Below are positions 6,787-43,734 of a stretch of 64,000 nt of DNA, one piece after another. The DNA comes from Kovacikia minuta CCNUW1 (GTDB taxonomy: Bacteria; Cyanobacteriota; Cyanobacteriia; Leptolyngbyales; Leptolyngbyaceae). The position numbers and the translations under genes were made by a program. Each line of letters opens with the position of its first letter. Positions within the stretch are counted from its first letter, which is position 1. The stretch is from assembly GCF_020091585.1 (NCBI RefSeq), contig NZ_CP083582.1, forward strand, positions 3,410,001-3,474,000. The letters run 5' to 3'. Under the pieces are notes generated by a model. That model saw only the letters and a list, made by a program, of their open reading frames with translations, did not search any database and was not told the origin of the DNA.

Positions 6787-6980
6787 AGGTGGTAGGTGAT
6801 AGGTTCAAAGGATGCAGGTCACAAGGACGCGGAGACGCGGAAAATTCAACTCAAAACTTAAGCACTCAAAACTTAGAACTTAAAACTCAAAACTTTCTCC
6901 GACCCCTTCATCCCCCCTCTTCTACTCCTTCAAAACTCGAAACTTAGAACTTAAAACTCAAAACTTTCTCCGACCCCTTG
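6787..6980. repeat. Duplicated ACTCAAA/ACTTAAA heptamer-rich block
   Basis: A stretch of about 40 bases (TTAGAACTTAAAACTC, then AAAACTTTCTCCGACCCCTT) occurs twice, near 6867-6909 and 6938-6980. The second copy covers the 3' end and stop codon of the next gene on the minus strand. It shows how this repeat family trims or extends coding sequences. Confidence 0.7.
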
Positions 6981-8434: not shown

Positions 8435-9613
8435 ATGAGCTTAAATCGTCGGCGGTTTTTGTTTCTAGCAGGAGTTGGAGCCATTGGTGGATTAGGGCTG
8501 GGTGCCTTTGCCCGCCATTCTCTAACAGGCACGACTGCGAACTCTTCAGGTCGTTCACCGATCGCTGCGCCTCCCACCTCTGCACCGCAGTCCGTAGCTA
8601 TACAGAAAAGCGCGATCGCCCCCAAAGGCTTGTTTGCGCCCATGCGGGGAGACGTGCGGATTGCGGTTATTAGTGATTTAAACAGTGCCTATGGTTCAAC
8701 AGACTATCAACCCCAGGTTGATCAGGCAATCTCCCTGATTCCTGACTGGCAACCCGATATTGTTCTAGGCGGTGGGGATATGGTGGCGGGTCAGTCCCCC
8801 TCCCTCTCATCCCAGGAAATCACAGCCATGTGGGCTGGGTTCGATCGCCACATCAGTGCGCCCCTGCGCCAGGCAAAGCTTCCCTTTGGGTTTACGATCG
8901 GCAACCACGACGCCTCTTCTGCCCTGGCAGTCAGCGGCAAATTTCTGTTCCAGAATGAACGGGATCATGCCAGTGCCTACTGGAATGACCCCAGCCATGA
9001 CCCCGGACTGCAATTCGTCGATCGGGCTAAATTTCCCTTTTACTACACCTTTCAGCACAAAGATATTTTTTACCTGGTCTGGGATGCCTCCTCCTCTCTC
9101 ATTCCCCGTGACCAGGTTGCCTGGGCAGAAAAAAGCCTTGCCAGTGAGGTCGCACAAGCAGCAAAGATGCGAATTGCGATCGGGCACCTGCCCCTCTATG
9201 CCGTGGCTGTGGGACGGGACGAACCAGGGGAAGTTCTGGCGGATGCCGACAAACTCCGAACCATGCTAGAGCGTTACAACGTCCATACCTACATCAGCGG
9301 GCACCACCACGCCTACTTCCCAGGACACAGCGGAAAGCTAGAACTGTTGCATGCCAGTGCCCTTGGTGCCGGTCCCCGCCCTCTATTAAATAGCAACCTC
9401 CCTCCCTTCAACACAGTCACCATTATTGACGTAGACTTAGGAGCCGCATCCACGGTTTACACCACCTACGATATGAAAAACCTCCAGGTGGTCGATCATA
9501 AAACCTTACCCCGATTGATCGCAGGTCCAACCGGAAAGTTACTGCGGCTGGATGTGCAGGAAAGCGATTTAACCGCATCAGAGCGCGCGTTAACCTGGCA
9601 ACCCAGTAGTTAG
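8435..9613 (+). CDS. Tat-exported calcineurin-like metallophosphoesterase
   Basis: 392 residues from ATG 8435; a GTG at 8429 would add two. The N-terminus SLNRRRFLFLAGVGAIGG is a twin-arginine signal with RRxFL followed by a hydrophobic core, predicting export of a folded metalloenzyme. Metallophosphatase motifs appear in order: VISDLN (a variant of the usual DxH), GGGDMV, GNHDAS, IAIGHLPLY and SGHHHAYFPGH. These ligate a dinuclear metal centre that hydrolyses phosphomono- or diesters. The histidine of the first DxH motif is replaced by Asn, which is seen in some subfamilies. The neighbouring folC starts 34 bases downstream and may be co-transcribed, but the functions are unrelated. Confidence 0.85.
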   Translation: MSLNRRRFLFLAGVGAIGGLGLGAFARHSLTGTTANSSGRSPIAAPPTSAPQSVAIQKSAIAPKGLFAPMRGDVRIAVISDLNSAYGSTDYQPQVDQAISLIPDWQPDIVLGGGDMVAGQSPSLSSQEITAMWAGFDRHISAPLRQAKLPFGFTIGNHDASSALAVSGKFLFQNERDHASAYWNDPSHDPGLQFVDRAKFPFYYTFQHKDIFYLVWDASSSLIPRDQVAWAEKSLASEVAQAAKMRIAIGHLPLYAVAVGRDEPGEVLADADKLRTMLERYNVHTYISGHHHAYFPGHSGKLELLHASALGAGPRPLLNSNLPPFNTVTIIDVDLGAASTVYTTYDMKNLQVVDHKTLPRLIAGPTGKLLRLDVQESDLTASERALTWQPSS

Positions 9614-9646: not shown

Positions 9647-11038
9647 GTGGATATTGATCAAACCCTGCAATCCTTCGCCCGGTTTGGAGTGCGACTGGGG
9701 CTAGAGTCCATTCAGCAACTCCTGACAAACCTAGGCAACCCCCAAGCGCGTGTCCCCATCGTCCATGTTGCTGGAAGTAACGGCAAGGGATCGGTGTGTG
9801 CTTACCTGTCAGCCGTTTTAACCGCAGCAGGTTACCGCGTTGGACGTTACACCTCACCCCATTTAATTGATTGGTGCGAACGGATTTGCCTGAATGAGCA
9901 GCCCATTTCCCCTGCTGATTTGGAACAGGTTCTGCAACAAACGATCGCCGCCATTCAACCCCATGACCCCCCTCCCACCCAGTTTGAGGTATTTACCGCT
10001 GCCGCATGGCTTTACTTTGCCCAACAACAGGTCGATATTGCCGTCATCGAAGTTGGGCTGGGCGGACGGTTAGACGCGACGAATGTCTGCGATCGCCCCC
10101 TGGTCAGCATCATCACCTCCATCAGCCGGGAACACTGGCAGCGACTTGGCCCCACCCTCGCAGATATTGCTGGAGAAAAAGCCGGAATCCTCAAACCCGG
10201 TTGTGCCGCAGTCATTGGGCACCTTCCCCCCGAAGCCAGAGCGGTCGTCGATCGCCGCATCGCTGAGCTGAAGTGTCCAGTGGTTTATCCTGAATCGGCT
10301 GTTGATGCAGGGTGTGGGGTGAGGGGTGAGGGGTGTGGGGAAGCGGAGTATCAAAATATTCGCTATCCTCTTCCCTTGCAAGGTTCGATACAACTCCATA
10401 ACTCCGCATTAGCGATCTCCGCCTTGCTGATTCTGCAAGAACAGGGATGGCAAATTTCGGATGAGGCGATCGCCAACGGCATGGCAAAAACCCAATGGAC
10501 CGGTCGTCTGCAATGGTTCACCTGGCAGGGGCATAAAATTCTGATCGATGGTGCCCACAATCCGGCGAGTGCAGAAGTGTTGCGGGAGTTTATTGATCAT
10601 CAGGTGTCAGATGTCAGGTGTCAGGTGTTAGGGGATAGGTTGCAAGGTACAGAGTACGAGGTACAGACTGTTCAAACCTCTTACCCCACACCCCACACCC
10701 CACACCCCACACCTACCCACTGGGTCATGGGCATGCTTTCCACCAAGGATCATGCAGATGTCTTCAAGGCATTACTGAGACCGGGCGATCGCCTCTACCT
10801 GGTTCCAGTACCCGACCACAGCTCCGCCGATCCAGAGGAGTTGGCAACGATCGCCCATCAAGTTTGCCCTGATCTGGCAGACTGCCACACGTTTCCAGAT
10901 GTAGTTACCGCATTAGCAACAGCAACGGCTGAAAATGTATCGAGACGAGAAGATACACCTCGCCAATCGTTAACGGTATTGTGTGGTTCTCTCTATTTAA
11001 TTGGGCATTTCTTCAAGTTAGTGGGCGATGGCAAATAA
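9647..11038 (+). CDS. folC: Bifunctional folylpolyglutamate synthase/dihydrofolate synthase
   Basis: 463 residues from a GTG start (DIDQTLQSFARFGVRLGL). It adds glutamate to dihydropteroate and to folates using ATP. The Mur-ligase P-loop is VAGSNGKGSVCAYLS, followed by YTSPHL, the EVGLGGRLDATN metal/ATP segment and DGAHNP at the start of the C-terminal domain. It is longer than the usual ~420 residues because of two simple-repeat inserts. One, near residue 222 (GCGVRGEGCGE), comes from GGGTGTG-like repeats. The other, near 322-360 (QVSDVRCQVLG to TPHTPHPTPT), comes from AGGTGTC and CCCCACA heptamers. Both lie in likely surface loops and keep the frame, so the enzyme is probably active. Confidence 0.93.
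   Translation: MDIDQTLQSFARFGVRLGLESIQQLLTNLGNPQARVPIVHVAGSNGKGSVCAYLSAVLTAAGYRVGRYTSPHLIDWCERICLNEQPISPADLEQVLQQTIAAIQPHDPPPTQFEVFTAAAWLYFAQQQVDIAVIEVGLGGRLDATNVCDRPLVSIITSISREHWQRLGPTLADIAGEKAGILKPGCAAVIGHLPPEARAVVDRRIAELKCPVVYPESAVDAGCGVRGEGCGEAEYQNIRYPLPLQGSIQLHNSALAISALLILQEQGWQISDEAIANGMAKTQWTGRLQWFTWQGHKILIDGAHNPASAEVLREFIDHQVSDVRCQVLGDRLQGTEYEVQTVQTSYPTPHTPHPTPTHWVMGMLSTKDHADVFKALLRPGDRLYLVPVPDHSSADPEELATIAHQVCPDLADCHTFPDVVTALATATAENVSRREDTPRQSLTVLCGSLYLIGHFFKLVGDGK
10594..10722. repeat. In-frame heptamer repeat insert within folC
   Basis: AGGTGTC-type heptamers (about 10600-10630) and CCCCACA heptamers (about 10684-10716) lie inside the folC reading frame. They are the same sequence class as the intergenic repeats. 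The frame stays open through the whole tract. Confidence 0.75.
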
Positions 11039-19195: not shown

Positions 19196-20929
19196 ATGAC
19201 TTTAGAGCAGCCCCTTGGTTCCGTTGTTCAAGGCTCCCTCAGTCAGGGTTTGGAAGTGCGCTTGCACCCAGATGTGCTGGTAGAAGACATGCGGGTGGGT
19301 AAGTTTCTGGTGGTTCAGGGCGTTCGATCGCGCTTCTTCTGCATGCTGACTGATGTTTCCCTTGGAACCTCCAGCCCCCGTATTCTGTCCAACCCTCCCG
19401 ATCCTGCCAATACTTTTTTACAGGAGGTGCTGGCGGGCAGCGGCACCTTTGGCACGATTGATTTAACGCCAATGCTAATGTTTACCCCAGAAAGCAGAAA
19501 GCAGGAGGGAATTCAAAACTCAAAACTCTAAACTCAAAACTCAAAACTTAACCCTTCAAAACTGGGTTCCTACAGCGCCCAATCCAGTGCGGAAATTGAA
19601 CTGCTTCCGGTCAAAACCATTCCCAATCACTTCAGTCAGGTTTTTGATGCCAGTGAGCGAGACTTTCGAGCAGTGTTCGGGTGGGAAGATGACCCCCATC
19701 GGCGTAACTTTGCCATTGGGCAACCGATCGACATGGACGTGCCCATTTGCATCGATCTCGATCGCTTCGTTGAGCGCAGCAACGGCGTATTTGGCAAATC
19801 GGGAACAGGAAAATCCTTTCTGACTCGCCTCCTGCTATCTGGCATTATCCGCAAACAGGCAGCGGTTAACCTGATTTTTGACATGCACTCCGAGTACGGC
19901 TGGGAGGCAACCAGAGAAGGTAAACAATTCAGTACAGTTAAAGGATTACGGCAGCTATTTCCTGGGCAGGTACAAATTTACACCCTAGATCCAGATTCCA
20001 CCAAACGTCGGGGAGTGCGAGATGCCCAGGAGCTTTACATCAGCTATGACCAGATCGATGTAGAAGACCTGATGCTGGTACGGGGAGAGCTGAACCTGTC
20101 GGAAGCCAGCCTGGAAAATGCCATCATCCTGCGGAATGAATTTGGCAAATCCTGGATTAGCCGCCTCCTATCCTTAAATAATGGCGAAATTCAGGAGTTC
20201 TGTGAAACCAAGATGGGCAGCAAATCTTCAATCATGGCACTCCAGCGCAAGTTAAACCGTCTGGATGAGTTGAAGTACATTCGTAGCGCCTGTCCGCACA
20301 ACTATGTGGGTCAAATTTTAGAATCCCTGGAAGCGGGTAAGCATGTCGTGGTTGAGTTTGGTTCCCAATCCAACCTGCTCTCCTACATGTTGGCAACCAA
20401 TGTCATTGCCCGTCGCATCCATCATGCCTACGTGCGGAAAGCCGAGCAGTTTTTGCAGACCAAGAACGTCCGTGATCGCCCCCGCCAACTCGTGATCACG
20501 ATCGAAGAGGCCCACCGCTTTCTTGACCCTGCCACCGTCGGGCAAACCATCTTCGGTACGATCGCCCGTGAAATGCGGAAATACTTTGTCACCCTTCTGG
20601 TGGTTGACCAGCGCCCCTCCGGGATTGACAACGAAGTTATGTCCCAGATTGGTACCCGCATTACCGCCCTACTCAACGACGAAAAAGATATTGATGCCAT
20701 CTTCACCGGAGTCTCTGGAGCACAAAGCCTCCGTTCCGTCCTGGCAAAACTTGACTCTAAACAACAGGCGCTCATCCTGGGACATGCGGTGCCCATGCCC
20801 GTTGTCATTCGAACCCGCCCCTACGATGAAACATTTTATGCAGAAATCGGTGAGACTGCCTGGGAAGAAATGCCAACCCCGGTTGTGTTCAAAGCCGCCG
20901 AAGCCGCAAGGGCAGATCTGGGAATCTAA
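19196..20929 (+). pseudogene. HAS-barrel/HerA-like ATPase (DUF87) with an internal stop in a repeat tract
   Basis: The first part (19196-19531) encodes a HAS-barrel-like domain (LEQPLGSVVQGSLSQGLEVR, then TIDLTPMLMFTPE). The second, in the same frame, continues ELLPVKTIPNHFSQVFDASE and then the ATPase: FGKSGTGKSFLTRLL (Walker A), ITIEEAHRF (Walker B with Glu), VVDQRPSGID (sensor) and a C-terminal arginine segment. Only one TAA at 19529-19531 separates them. It lies in an ACTCAAA heptamer tract where one unit reads ACTCTAA; an A at 19529 would restore the frame. HerA-type hexameric translocases act in DNA-end processing or DNA/protein pumping. The downstream fragment could restart (TTG or ATG), giving a bare ATPase. 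A nonsense pseudogene or a base error are both possible. Confidence 0.8.
19494..19566. repeat. ACTCAAA heptamer tract inside the HerA-like gene
   Basis: A GCAGAAAGCAGGAGG purine start is followed by ATTCAAA/ACTCAAA heptamers (19511-19548). It encodes GIQNSKL, stop, TQNSKL within the HAS-barrel/ATPase junction. The same IQNSK peptide is encoded inside two other genes of this window. Confidence 0.75.
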
Positions 20930-22857: not shown

Positions 22858-23096
22858 TAGGATGTCCTAATGGCACTGGAAACCCTTTATCACGCAGTTT
22901 TCTTCTCTTACACCTGATACCTGGCACCTACTTTCCGTGTTTTTGCTTAACCTTACCTTAATGAACTGATGAATTCTCGTAATTAAAAGAGCAGCCTTAG
23001 AGCAAATACTCCTACCCCTGGGAACACTACTGGTAATGGTGATATGGATTACGCAAGTAACTCCGTATTTGGGTGGCAGCGAGAGGAATAAACCAA

Positions 23097-24053
23097 ATGG
23101 CAGACGAGGGGCACCTTGCTTTACTGAAGCAAGGAGTAACTGCATGGAACGACTGGTGGCAGAAAAATCCTAAAACTATCCCCAACCTCGAAGGGGCAAC
23201 GCTGAAAGAGATTAACTTGAGGGAATTTAACTTCTTTAGAGCTGATTTGCGAGAAGTGACTTTCAGCCAGGTAGACCTGAGCATGGCAAATCTGGAAGGA
23301 GCCAATCTTGGCATTGCCATGCTGGAAGGGGCAACACTTTATACGGCAATTCTCTACAAAGCAAACCTGCGGGAGTCAAACCTTCAGAAAGCCGACTTGA
23401 GAGAGGCAGATTTGAGCCAGGTAGACCTGAGCATGGCAAATCTGCGGGAAGCCAATCTTTGTACCTCCGTTTTAGAAGGGGCAATGCTATACACAGCAAT
23501 TCTTTATAAAGCCAATCTTTGGGAAGCCAGTCTTTACAAAGCAGACCTGCGGGAAGCCGACTTTGGCATGGCAAATTTACGAGAAGCCAACCTCAGCATG
23601 ACAAACATGAGTATGGCGAATCTTTGTATGGCAAATTTGGTCGGAGCAACCCTTTACGAAGGCAACCTGTCCCGAACCAATTTCAATCTGGCAAACCTTT
23701 GCATGACTAACCTGATTGGAGCCAATCTCCATAAAGCGAATTTAGTTGGGGCAACCATGATTGGAGCCAATCTGTACAAGGCTTCCCTGGTGGGAGCAAA
23801 CCTGCGCGAAGCAGATCTACGAGAAGCAACCCTGAGTATGACAAATCTAAGTGAAGCGAGCCTCCTGGGTGCCAATCTGAGTATGGCAAACCTGCAAAAT
23901 GCCAACCTGAGTAAAACCAACCTGAGCCTGGCAAATCTGCAAGAGGCAAATTTGCACATGGCAAACCTCAAAGGGGCAAATGTCAAAGGTGCCAACCTGA
24001 ATGGAGCTTACTTAAAAGATGCCATTATGCCAGATGGGACTGTGCATGGATGA
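23097..24053 (+). CDS. Pentapeptide-repeat protein
   Basis: 318 residues from ATG 23097 (MADEGHLALLKQG), which has a GAGAGG site upstream; an earlier in-frame start at 23073 lacks one. After a ~30-residue helical cap (TAWNDWWQKNPKTIPNLEGA) the rest is A(N/D)LxX pentapeptides, about 50 of them, predicted to form a right-handed four-sided beta-helix. Many repeats carry Met (LSMANLSMTNMSMANLCMAN) in place of the usual Ser/Arg, an unusual bias. No signal peptide or membrane segment. Function is unknown; some family members mimic DNA and bind gyrase, but nothing here supports that specifically. DNA repeats of the coding region make antisense frames that are artefacts. Confidence 0.93.
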   Translation: MADEGHLALLKQGVTAWNDWWQKNPKTIPNLEGATLKEINLREFNFFRADLREVTFSQVDLSMANLEGANLGIAMLEGATLYTAILYKANLRESNLQKADLREADLSQVDLSMANLREANLCTSVLEGAMLYTAILYKANLWEASLYKADLREADFGMANLREANLSMTNMSMANLCMANLVGATLYEGNLSRTNFNLANLCMTNLIGANLHKANLVGATMIGANLYKASLVGANLREADLREATLSMTNLSEASLLGANLSMANLQNANLSKTNLSLANLQEANLHMANLKGANVKGANLNGAYLKDAIMPDGTVHG

Positions 24054-24185
24054 GGAGGCAGGTGGCAGGTGGCAGGTGGCAGGTGGCAGGTGGCAAAAAA
24101 GGATAAAGGATAAAAATCCTCACCTCCTCACCTCCCTATCTCCCCCACCTTCCTCATCTCATCCTCCCTCTTCCCTCTTGCCTCC
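24054..24185. repeat. GGTGGCA heptamer and pyrimidine-arm element
   Basis: GGTGGCA heptamers (about 24060-24095), then AAAGGATAAAGGATAAAA, then a pyrimidine arm of CCTCACCTCC/CTTCCCTC units up to the stop codon of the glycosyltransferase gene. Same purine-AT-pyrimidine layout as the other elements. Confidence 0.75.
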
Positions 24186-31203: not shown

Positions 31204-32425
31204 ATGCAAACCATTCTAGTAATTGAGGATGAACAGGCTGTTCGCAGAAATATTGTGGACATGCTCAAGGCTGAGGGATCTTCAGGCGATCGCCGCAGAA
31301 GATGGACAAGTGGGTGTGGAGTTAGCCCAAAAGCATCTCCCTGACCTCATCATCTGTGATGTGATGATGCCCAAGCTAGACGGATTCGCTGTTTTAGAAA
31401 AGTTGCAGGCAACTCCTATCACTGGAGCAATTCCCTTCATTTTCCTCACCGCCAGAGCCGAATTACGGGATTTCCGCCGAGGCATGAGTTTGGGGGCAGA
31501 CGATTATCTGACGAAACCCTTTACCCGTGCAGAATTGCTAGAAGCCATTGCCACACGCCTGACAAAGCACGCTGCATTTACAGAGTTGCAGCATAAGTTG
31601 GAGGAATTTCAACAATCCAGTTTGCTAAAGGACGACTTTATCAATACGGTTGCCCATGAACTGCGAAGCCCCCTGGCAACCATGAAGATGGCAATCGAAA
31701 TGCTTCAATTGATTCCAGATGCCAAACGGCGGCAATCTTACTTAAAGGTCTTGCAGACAGCCTGCGATCGCGAAGTAGAAATCATTAATGATCTATTAGA
31801 CCTGCAACGCCTGGAAGCCCAAACCGAACAGGACGATCTGGAAATGATTGACCTGCAAAACTGGATTTTACCCATCACTGAATCCTTCAAAGTCCGTGCT
31901 CAGCAACGACAGCAAACGATTCAAGTTTGTCTTGCGCCTAATCTTCCCTCGCTCCTAACCAATCCTTCTGGCTTAGGACGGGTTCTGACTGAACTGTTTA
32001 ATAACGCCTGCAAATACACCTCACCGGGTGGCAGCATCATTTTGAATGTGATACCGGGGAACTTGGAATCAGGAGCCAGAAGCCAAGGAAGCGAGGAAAA
32101 CGCAGAGATGCGGAGACACGGAGACGCGGAGATTTCAATTCAAAATTCAAAATTCAAAATTCAAAACTCCCCTGCTTCCCCCAGCCTCCCACTCCCATCC
32201 ATCCAATTTGTTTTTAGCAACGAAGCCGAGATTCCGGCTGAAGCTCTGCCCCAGGTATTTGAGCGATTTTACCGGGTGCCCAATGGCGATCGCTGGCACC
32301 AGGGTGGTACTGGTCTGGGGTTGAGCCTGGTCAAAAAATTCATTGAACGGATGAATGGCACCATCCAGGTCTGTAGCAAAGCGGGTTGGACTCACTTCAC
32401 AATTCAACTACCGCTTATGGACTAA
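31204..32425 (+). pseudogene. Receiver-histidine kinase hybrid, frameshifted
   Basis: ATG 31204 opens a receiver domain (QTILVIEDEQAVRRNIVDML) that goes out of frame at about 31280, where GAGGGATCTTCAGG has one C more than the GAGGGATTTCAGG needed for EGFQAIAAEDG. The other frame then runs to 32425: phospho-acceptor context IICDVMMPKLDG, KPFTRAELLEA, HisKA (FINTVAHELRSPLATM), and HATPase with NNACKYTSPGG and GGTGLGLSLVKKF. Reconstructed length is about 406 residues. An insert in the ATPase domain (about 278-320, including IQNSKFKIQN) comes from ATTCAAA heptamers and purine repeats. The gene is bracketed by two direct copies of a ~95 bp element, the right one starting at the base after the stop. 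Function depends on whether the shift is real. Confidence 0.82.
32064..32195. repeat. In-frame heptamer insert within the receiver-kinase gene
   Basis: A purine-rich start (AGGAGCCAGAAGCCAAGG), ATTCAAA heptamers at about 32138-32167, then a pyrimidine end (CCCCCAGCCTCCCACTCCC). The three-part layout equals that of intergenic copies; the reading frame is preserved. Confidence 0.8.
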
Positions 32426-40692: not shown

Positions 40693-43047
40693 ATGTCCTC
40701 CCCTCCCTTCTCACTCGATCAACTTCAAGCCACGTTGCGTCCAGGGCAGCGAGAAATTGCCGACTGGCAGGGGGGTCCCTTAGCAGTAGCCGCGGTGCCA
40801 GGGTCAGGGAAGTCTACGGGAATGGCGGTGGCAGCGGCGATCGCGATTGCTCGACATCAGCTGAACAACCGTCGCCAATTAATAGTGGTGACGTTTACCC
40901 GATCGGCAGCAGCAAATATCAAAGCTAAAATTCGGGGATATTTGAGGCAGTTGTCCCTGCCACCGGGGGGCTTTACGGTCCAAACGCTGCACGGGCTGGC
41001 ATGGGCGATCGCCCGTGCCCATCCGGAGTTGTCGGGTTTAAACCAGGACAGTGTGCTGGTGACCCTTAACCAGAGCCATCGCCTGATTCGCACCTGCGTC
41101 GAGCAGTGGATTTCGGCAAACTCCCGCCACTATCAGAGATTGATTGAAGGACGCCAGTTTGATGGCGAGGAAACAGAACGGTTGCGCCGCCAGACCGTAT
41201 TAAGAACTGAACTATTGCCTGCCCTAGCATCGACTGTCATTCATGAGGCAAAAAGTTCCGGGTTATTACCAGCGGATCTGCGTCGGCAAAGTCAGGAAAT
41301 GTCCGATCCCTATGCGGTATTGGCGATCGCAGCTGGATTGTACGAGTTTTACCAGACCCAACTCCAATTCCGAAATCTGATCGATTATGACGAGATGATT
41401 CTCGGTGCGTTGCGTGTGCTGGAAGACCCGGCGGTGCGCCAGTACTGGCAGAACCAGGTGTTTGCCGTGTTTGAAGATGAGGCGCAGGACTCCAGCCCAT
41501 TGCAAACCCGGCTCCTGGAAATCCTGGCGGTTGATCCCACTGTTCCCAATCAACAAAATCTGGTCCGAGTCGGAGATCCGAATCAGGCAATTAACTCCAC
41601 CTTTACTCCAGCAGACCCGATTTATTTTCGAGAGTTCTGTGAAGTGTGTCGAAACCAGAACTGCTTAGCCAGCATGACCCAGGCGGGACGCAGTACTCGC
41701 CCGATCATTGATGCGGCAAACTTTGTGCTTCGGTGGGTCAATGGGGTGTACGGAGGGCAGAAGGCAGAAGGCAGAGGGCAGATGGCAGATGGGGAGGATG
41801 GGGAGAATGCAATTCAAAATTCAAAATTCAAAATTCAAAATTTTTCCTCATCCCCCATCCCCCATCCCTCATCCCTTCCAGAAACGCCCTTCAGTTCCCA
41901 GATGATTCATCCGGTATCTGCGGGAGATCCGCAACCGGATGCAAACCCGATCGCCGAGGGGCGGGGATTGGAACTGTATACGCCAGAGGATGTTTACCAG
42001 ACGGTAGAATGGATCGGGCAGCGAGCAATTGCCCTGTTTCAGAAAAATCCGCAGGGATCGGCTGCCGTGCTGGTGCGAACCAATGAACAGGGCAGATTCG
42101 TTGCCAGGGAATTGTATCGCTGGCACCTGGACACACTGCCTGTGTATGAGGTGGGGCAGCGCGATCGGCAATCCCATGTGCCTGCCGAGTTGCTGACCCT
42201 GCTTCAGTTTTGCGATCGTCCCCACTCGCCTGACTACCTGAAGGCTGCACTCACAACCCTGGTCGGGCGCAAGCTCATTCCCACCCAGGATTTGAATGCC
42301 CTGGTCAGCTTTCCAGAGCAATTCCTCTACCCCGGACCGCTTGACCCACCCCAATCTGATCTCGTTGCCCAGGCGCGGCACTACTGCACCAGCCTCCTGC
42401 GTGCCCGCCTGGAATTGCCTCCTCGCCAATTGATTCCGTTTCTTGCCCTTACCCTGGACTACGACCAGACGGAATTGGCAACGGCTGATAAGTTGGCAGA
42501 GCGAGTTGCCCAGCAGGCTTTAGGAGAGAATACCCTGCCTGCCATTCTGAGTATACTGGCTGAAATTGTTACGGCTGAGCAGTTTGAACCCGTTGAGGCG
42601 GAGGACGGCGAAGAACGCTATACCCGTCCTGGGCAACTGACGGTGATTACCATGCACAAAGCCAAGGGCTTGGATTGGGATTATGTCTTCGTTCCCTTCC
42701 TGCACGAAAATATGATTCCGGGAACCCAGTGGATTCCGCCCCAGATGCAATTTTTGGGAGACTTTACCCTGGCGGAAGTTGCCCGTGCCCAGATTCGCGC
42801 TTACCTGCACAACCAGTTCCCGTTACCCGATATCGAAACAGCCTGGGAACGGGCAAAAACCCTAAAAACAGCGGAAGAATTTCGCCTGCTCTATGTCGCC
42901 ATGACACGAGCCAAACGATTGCTCTGGATGTCTGCGGCAGCAAAAGCACCCTTCACCTGGAATAAACCTGAAAACCTGGATGAACGCAATCCCTGTCCAG
43001 TTTTTCCAGCCTTGCAAGCACAGTTTCCAGATTCTATCTGTCTCTAA
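40693..43047 (+). CDS. UvrD/Rep-family ATP-dependent DNA helicase
   Basis: 784 residues, superfamily 1A. Motif Q/I: RPGQREIADWQGGPLAVAAV then PGSGKST (Walker A, ~34-42). Motif Ia VVTFTRSAA, motif II VFEDEAQDSSPLQ (DExQ box), motif III RVGDPNQAIN, motif V TVITMHKAKGLDWDYVFVP, motif VI LLYVAMTRAKR. It probably unwinds DNA 3' to 5' in repair. An insert at about 353-400 (GGQKAEGRGQMADGEDGEN, IQNSKFKIQN, SSSPIPHPSS) comes from GGCAGAN, ATTCAAA and CCCATCC heptamers and lies between motifs III and IV, a tolerant region. The C-terminal third is shorter than in UvrD itself. No RecB-like nuclease domain. Confidence 0.9.
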   Translation: MSSPPFSLDQLQATLRPGQREIADWQGGPLAVAAVPGSGKSTGMAVAAAIAIARHQLNNRRQLIVVTFTRSAAANIKAKIRGYLRQLSLPPGGFTVQTLHGLAWAIARAHPELSGLNQDSVLVTLNQSHRLIRTCVEQWISANSRHYQRLIEGRQFDGEETERLRRQTVLRTELLPALASTVIHEAKSSGLLPADLRRQSQEMSDPYAVLAIAAGLYEFYQTQLQFRNLIDYDEMILGALRVLEDPAVRQYWQNQVFAVFEDEAQDSSPLQTRLLEILAVDPTVPNQQNLVRVGDPNQAINSTFTPADPIYFREFCEVCRNQNCLASMTQAGRSTRPIIDAANFVLRWVNGVYGGQKAEGRGQMADGEDGENAIQNSKFKIQNFSSSPIPHPSSLPETPFSSQMIHPVSAGDPQPDANPIAEGRGLELYTPEDVYQTVEWIGQRAIALFQKNPQGSAAVLVRTNEQGRFVARELYRWHLDTLPVYEVGQRDRQSHVPAELLTLLQFCDRPHSPDYLKAALTTLVGRKLIPTQDLNALVSFPEQFLYPGPLDPPQSDLVAQARHYCTSLLRARLELPPRQLIPFLALTLDYDQTELATADKLAERVAQQALGENTLPAILSILAEIVTAEQFEPVEAEDGEERYTRPGQLTVITMHKAKGLDWDYVFVPFLHENMIPGTQWIPPQMQFLGDFTLAEVARAQIRAYLHNQFPLPDIETAWERAKTLKTAEEFRLLYVAMTRAKRLLWMSAAAKAPFTWNKPENLDERNPCPVFPALQAQFPDSICL
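41748..41885. repeat. In-frame heptamer insert within the helicase gene
   Basis: GGCAGAA/GGCAGAT heptamers (41757-41788), ATTCAAA heptamers (41811-41840), then pyrimidine CCCATCC-type heptamers to about 41878. It is the most complete in-frame example of the purine-AT-pyrimidine element in the window. Confidence 0.85.
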
Positions 43048-43720: not shown

Positions 43721-43734
43721 GGAAAAGGAAAGGA

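Follow-up and report, generated by a model that had tools for sequence, protein, structure and literature searches.

HerA proteins of the HerA-FtsK superfamily, known from Deinococcus and Sulfolobus, are the closest described counterparts of the gene studied here. According to part of a report on the Deinococcus protein, the HAS-barrel makes the exit pore and binds NurA (PMC9960219), so that the two parts of HerA would need to act in one complex. The gene in our sample shares with this family both Pfam domains above their cut-offs and, by profile comparison, resemblance to solved chains that bear the name HerA or HerA-like (e.g. 8wiv, 4d2i), but it falls below the NCBIfam equivalog cut-offs, has a long and variable linker, and is interrupted. 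A further likeness lies in the P-loop and IEEAH sequences, found among the invariant alignment columns, which we take to be motifs of the HerA-type ATPase.

Heptameric simple repeats of cyanobacteria have a history of their own in the literature under the name STRR. For the chromosome of Nostoc sp. PCC 7120, sections of one report describe heptameric GGGGA(T/C)T repeats throughout, over-represented in non-coding and under-represented in coding regions (PMC4692102). The array in the HerA-like gene has in common with STRR-like repeats its tandem units of seven bases, its occurrence at many places per genome and its variable copy number, while it differs from the Nostoc repeats in coding for a protein linker, in recurring at one site in many relatives, and in its unit sequence. 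It lies inside the coding frame, not between genes as would be typical of STRR-like repeats. Rickettsia palindromic elements, of about 100-150 bases, are spreading DNA that settles in frame at tolerant places of conserved proteins; in the HerA linker, by contrast, the repeats are tandem heptamers, and one unit gives way to another at a single site. Contingency loci carry simple repeats inside genes, and surface proteins are the familiar case. They resemble the present locus in that a tandem repeat with a unit length not divisible by three lies within the coding frame, but here the gene encodes a DNA motor, the change is a substitution, and copy-number switching was not seen. Searches of openly licensed PMC papers did not bring up a case of heptamer tracts that return to the same protein linker, which is no proof of novelty as most subscription papers lie outside that scope.

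A HerA-like gene interrupted within a heptamer array

The window, by which we mean the whole analysed stretch of 64,000 nucleotides of Kovacikia minuta CCNUW1, contains on its plus strand a single frame from the ATG at 19196 to the TAA at 20927-20929, with 577 codons ahead of the final stop. Codon 112 is a TAA as well, and the frame is otherwise without stops (Table 1). The initial annotation had read the HAS-barrel and ATPase parts in one frame parted solely by this codon, on which frame translation and Pfam agree, and the letters confirm that the heptamer unit with T at 19529 is flanked by ACTCAAA units. Its placement of the stop between the two domains stood in so far as both lie on either side of it. 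The stop is not at the border of the Pfam matches but 19 codons past the end of the HAS-barrel match and 60 codons short of the DUF87 match, and part of the interval between the domains (19595-19672) is strongly conserved.

Table 1. Positions in the window of the parts of the interrupted gene and of arrays in other genes
Feature	Position	Strand	Evidence
First part of HerA gene, ATG to internal TAA, 111 codons, HAS-barrel	19196..19531	+	ORF and Pfam
HAS-barrel Pfam match, residues 8-93	19217-19474	+	PF09378, 1.6e-15, 57.4 bits (cut-off 25.2)
Variable linker between conserved ...LTPMLM and VKTIP, 129 nt (51-171 nt in relatives examined)	19481..19609	+	
Heptamer array, period 7, 5.1 copies, 93% matches, unit TCAAAAC (ACTCAAA in another register)	19513..19548	+	Tandem Repeats Finder
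In-frame TAA, from T at 19529 in one array unit	19529..19531	+	Sequence letters, frame
Second part of HerA gene, 465 codons and final stop, DUF87/HerA ATPase	19532..20929	+	ORF and Pfam
Conserved segment 3' of linker, residues 134-159 (IELLPVKTIPNHFSQVFDASERDFRA), omitted by a restart at 19673	19595..19672	+	
First canonical in-frame start after the internal stop, GTG; no clear ribosome-binding site upstream (by eye)	19673..19675	+	
DUF87/HerA central domain Pfam match	19712-20419	+	PF01935, 5.7e-38, 131.6 bits (cut-off 23.2)
Open arrays inside Mur-ligase-type gene 9647-11038	10310-10713		
Open array inside histidine kinase 31223-32425	32137-32166		
Open arrays inside UvrD-type helicase 40693-43047	41756-41876		

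The array in the linker has a lag-7 score of 25 and a codon-shuffle p of 0.002. Single-base changes that give a stop make up 8 of 108 in the array codons and 171 of 5076 in the remaining gene, which is about twice the share. Since seven is not a multiple of three, an array of at least three units is read in all three frames, and a unit with a stop word therefore closes the gene whatever its register; this is arithmetic and not a result.

The source genome (G000) comprises 8,564,336 bases in 3 contigs, with completeness 100 and contamination 4.11. A second copy of the HerA ortholog was not found in it. Two other DUF87 proteins match at 25-27% identity, and a search of the genome with the HAS-barrel half gave one match, the half itself.

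Orthologs and other shortened frames

Some DUF87 match is present in 57 of 58 cyanobacterial genomes, and in 52 of the 58, the source genome included, the ATPase half aligned at 72% identity or more. An open frame of 559-639 codons was found in 50 of these 52, the exceptions being the source genome (465) and the draft G007 (464). A wider draw covered 388 genomes of the class, and at least 287 of them gave matches at 1e-60 or better. Both domains are fused in one polypeptide in the two relatives scanned whole with Pfam (L172 and L102), whereas the stop intervenes in the source genome. Against the NCBIfam HerA equivalogs, the best score was 80.5 bits, of the intact relative L102 to NF042943, and the ATPase half of the interrupted gene scored 80.3 bits against the same model, with a cut-off of 800. 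With matches so far under the cut-off, we refer to the gene as belonging to an unnamed HerA-like subfamily. Judged from domains and motifs, it would encode a HerA-type DNA translocase (HAS-barrel and DUF87 ATPase) that appears to be kept as a single protein in cyanobacteria.

Several shortened frames were inspected as candidates for further splits and set aside. L013, from G007 (93% complete, contamination 5), has a frameshift in the HAS-barrel (by eye) and a linker length that is not a multiple of three. L093, from G303 (68% complete), is frameshifted directly 3' of the linker and probably once more towards its end (by eye). As both come from drafts, neither supports a repeated functional split. 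Among the matches listed, the short frames of G226, G252 and G313 have coordinates that place their beginnings at contig starts, and those of G232, G288 and G346 sit at contig ends; the match of G346 has one TAA within it. An AlphaFold2 model of the read-through protein was also set aside (43-row alignment, mean pLDDT 49.7), its low confidence probably being due to the similarity of the alignment rows, which share 79-90% identity with the first. Viral contigs were scanned for remoter rows, with 44 pattern matches and no relative.

Heptamer DNA recurs in the linker

Linker DNA was taken between the ...LTPMLM and VKTIP motifs from 181 loci, of which 172 gave a linker and 123 linkers were distinct. 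Some genomes enter this set twice (under our own handle and as a named record), and the gene of the source genome three times. The nine loci left out are another gene (L039), seven loci at contig ends, and L093 with the frameshift mentioned above. The interrupted frame is unusual in this comparison with orthologs: 121 of the 123 distinct linkers are in frame and open, the exceptions being the nonsense codon described here and the frameshifted draft L013. A stop codon was found in none of the other 122 distinct linkers.

A seven-base period (score of at least 8) is present in 25 of the 123 distinct linkers, compared with 0, 3, 3, 2, 0 and 0 at the control lags of 4, 5, 8, 10, 11 and 13; lag 14, a multiple of seven, gives 23. 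Codon shuffles return p ≤ 0.004 in 25 of the 123. When whole genes are considered (117 genes, score of at least 9), 28 lag-7 tracts fall in linkers, which sum to 14,286 bases, and one in the remaining 187,083 bases. Lag-5 tracts number 3 in linkers against 0 in the rest, and lag-8 tracts 1 against 0.

Tract length and unit vary among the linkers of close relatives. As an illustration, the seven rows of one genus (code g4) include GGAGTCA-, GAGGGGA-, GAAAGCC- and GGTCAGC-like units; in one further row (L031), no tract reaches the threshold. On a quick tree of 117 rows (LG+G4, no bootstrap, linker columns removed), the heptamer linker occurs in 25 rows and needs at least 14 label changes, 8 of them forced by starred (well-supported) branches. 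Shuffled labels need a mean of 22.8 changes, with 0 of 500 shuffles as low as 14. The label depends on the threshold, and the tree cannot separate gain from loss. The smallest starred set holding the interrupted gene contains 10 rows, 9 of them with a heptamer linker, so the tract probably predates the stop.

Heptamers in the linker tend to go together with a heptamer-rich genome. Two heptamer units were considered, and exact 21-mers of one or the other were found in 15 of 16 genomes with a heptamer-coded linker and in 1 of 6 without, in a comparison of 22 hand-picked genomes in which the reversed pattern is that same repeat in another register and hence void as a control. That the HerA gene can tolerate repeat DNA in its linker, beyond one gene copy, is well supported by these comparisons.

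Heptamer arrays across the source genome

In 864 kb of the source genome (the window and 40 further stretches, of 8.56 Mb), 276 lag-7 arrays were counted, against 3-18 at lags 5, 6, 8, 9, 10 and 11. The first 464 kb contain 169 arrays, 44 of which fall inside ORFs of 100 codons or more; as such ORFs take up 80% of the bases, arrays are depleted yet present in genes. Of the 276 arrays, 52 are crossed by a frame that stays open for 60 codons or more to either side. Another 25, the HerA array included, have open frames of this length on both sides and none through.

Besides the HerA gene, five of these 25 arrays had both sides scanned with Pfam. At position 43732 of the window and in L210 and L218, a domain was found downstream only, so these look like gene starts. 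Around 9092 in L192, PAS matches lie on both sides of the array in open frames of 127 and 300 codons, and around 5505 in L215, open frames of 643 and 779 codons adjoin the array, with a weak DUF2157 match upstream and a continuous-looking membrane frame. The two open frames are in different frames in each case, and both loci look like frameshifts at arrays. The L215 frame seems to be broken at a C-rich array, either by a real break or by a homopolymer error.

In L192:8192-9572, the G-rich array (9092-9191) contains one irregular extra G (by eye) between the PAS-domain frames. In L215:3599-7875 (G000:C1, 3.00 Mb region), the long membrane-protein frame includes several in-frame arrays, and its DUF2157 match is below the cut-off.

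We have also addressed the order of neighboring arrays. Among 82 pairs no more than 200 bp apart in the 864 kb, 53 are G-rich then C-rich and none is the reverse. Within 300 bp these orders number 55 and 2, and beyond 1 kb the reverse prevails, 45 to 10. One other genome (G013) gave 3 to 0, and samples of four more (G025, G032, G029 and G022) gave no pair of either order. The arrays seem to come as composite cassettes. A hairpin element formed by paired arms is not claimed, because folding energies averaged -22.3 kcal/mol against -23.3 for shuffled partners, with 39 of 50 shuffles as low; likewise, 6 of the 82 pairs have arms sharing an inverted unit, against a shuffled mean of 7.5. In the window, a G-rich array (24053-24095) starts on the last stop-codon base of a pentapeptide-repeat-like gene (23073-24053, named by eye), and two identical 25-base arrays (6870-6894 and 6941-6965) start 71 bases apart.

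Age of the break and expression of the ATPase half

Across 117 rows, 347 columns reach a conservation of 95% or more, and the interrupted gene deviates at none of them. The same is true of 34 of the 117 rows, with a median of 1 deviation, so this test bounds the age of the break and cannot tell loss from function. Zero changes over 788.7 nonsynonymous sites give a bound of about 0.0038 neutral changes per site (95%, Poisson), so that an unconstrained break would date back less than about 0.004. For nine near relatives, the synonymous distances mostly exceed 1 or are saturated. Together with the absence of deviations, this means that the break is recent on the scale of the tree, or that there is no break, or that the halves are still selected.

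The initial annotation had suggested that the halves might work as separate polypeptides through downstream starts. The first in-frame ATG, GTG or TTG past the stop is the GTG at 19673, 141 bases (47 codons) on and beyond the conserved segment. Of the 26 columns of this segment, 16 reach 95% conservation in 117 sequences and 13 vary in no more than one of them. As this canonical restart omits the segment, two working halves are unlikely, and that suggestion does not hold up well. Earlier in-frame codons are non-canonical (CTG at 19562, ATT at 19595). No clear GGAG-type sequence was seen by eye in the 27 bases 5' of 19673. By eye, none precedes the gene's own start at 19196 either, so this absence counts less. 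The RNA around the internal stop shows no unusual degree of structure (z -0.41; 59 of 200 shuffles do equally well).

NurA genes as possible partners

NurA (PF09376) is present in 56 of the 58 genomes, and most of the 58 contain two NurA types and two HerA-like proteins. The source genome has two NurA genes, NurA-A and NurA-B, neither adjoining the interrupted HerA gene. Its NurA-A is one open frame of 434 codons (L222:325-1626, that is G000:C1:1438125-1439426, minus strand). Most of a GGGATGA-like and of a TCATCCC-like heptamer array lies in an in-frame insert of about 43 residues that many orthologs lack.

Presence and absence were read by hand from searches with the two NurA proteins of the source genome, which set the two types apart, with partial matches and the damaged HerA of G007 counted as present, and NurA-A was taken as absent where the best match was no better than about 1e-14 and at a NurA-B-like protein. 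On this basis, this HerA and NurA-A are both present in 48 of the 58 genomes, one or the other is absent in 4 and 4, and both are absent in 2 (Fisher p 0.11; p 0.04 when the 52 genomes of 90% completeness or more are taken). The other HerA-like protein tracks NurA-B, as 7 genomes lack both of them (Fisher p 4e-6, 58 genomes). For this HerA, the pairing with NurA-A is weak and partly by elimination. G007, with its damaged HerA, also shows no NurA-A. The intact NurA-A of the source genome would be expected of a pair still at work and argues mildly against an old loss of HerA. The two other DUF87 genes of this genome and its second NurA offer a possible back-up.

Origin and consequence of the stop

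With some hesitation, we favor the reading that the stop has very recently, and at strain level, taken away the function of one of the genome's HerA-like proteins. Heptamer DNA would settle in the linker time and again and be replaced there, since nearly any repeat that keeps the frame and is free of stops would be tolerated. In this genome, one single-base change in the array would have given the stop, and the outcome would be a 111-residue HAS-barrel fragment and little or no ATPase. The genome's other DUF87 proteins and its second NurA may make the loss survivable. This reading takes the base to be real and the downstream part not to be made, and the loss would be both recent and tolerated. 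In the initial annotation, the gene had tolerated the repeat and was then split by one substitution. In-frame heptamer tracts in the linkers of many relatives and the single interrupting codon agree with this, provided that the base is real.

A base error is a serious contender, although we hold it to be less probable. The gene would then be intact in the organism, and the T a consensus or polishing mistake in a repeat resembling many others. The pristine conserved columns fit such an error as well as they fit a recent loss, and the gene being otherwise perfect, its possible partner NurA-A being intact, and the lack of any stop in the other distinct linkers point the same way, the frameshifted cases L013 and L093 being drafts. 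The genome contains the three-unit 21-mer of the ACTCAAA-type repeat 94 times, with partial overlaps, which could lead to misplaced reads, and other frames of this assembly seem to break at arrays (L215, L192). Those two breaks, however, sit in G- or C-rich arrays, and the HerA lesion is a substitution. A typical long-read error is a change of homopolymer length, which this is not. In addition, many in-gene arrays of the assembly are open, as shown by the numbers crossed and not crossed, and the variant unit with the stop also occurs in one other array of the genome (G000:C1:368013, outside any identified frame), so such units exist naturally.

We consider it decidedly unlikely that the stop is real and the protein is still made, either by readthrough of the TAA or as two reassembling polypeptides, the second from a non-standard or distant start. 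Every strongly conserved residue is kept in both halves, the linker would be the place where a split least disturbs the fold (the predicted structure being too poor to show it), and the in-frame CTG and ATT lie before or at the start of the conserved segment. Against this, the first canonical start comes past that segment and has, like the gene's own start, no clear ribosome-binding sequence by eye, the RNA around the stop folds no better than many shuffles, and no other distinct linker is split by a stop. The role of the Deinococcus HAS-barrel, as far as the cited part of that report goes, would also place the two parts in one complex.

That the array acts as a switch, with heptamer slippage turning the gene on and off in a population, is hardly credible even though a one-unit change of seven bases shifts the frame and tracts vary between close relatives, since the lesion is a substitution and not a copy-number change, nearly all distinct linkers (121 of 123) are in frame and open, and to our knowledge a DNA motor is not a usual phase-variable gene.

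Implications

Returning to the recent loss that we favor, the stop would be a small event that shows a price, namely that this linker, being coded by repeats, lies nearer to stop codons than the remaining gene does. What deserves to be kept is the recurrence of heptamers in the linker rather than the stop. As a speculative extension, and a doubtful one, the linker could be a long-lived docking site for heptamers in filamentous cyanobacteria, with arrays repeatedly inserted or replaced in frame; genomic repeats would then write the joint of a repair motor, and stop-prone units would raise the rate of reversible loss.

At a more modest level, one defined joint of a conserved protein appears to have taken up heptamers many times, with the unit changed between close relatives. 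In relatives, repeats in this flexible protein joint usually leave the HerA gene unbroken. The HerA linker may thus be used to measure how heptamers arrive, change, and get filtered by the reading frame.
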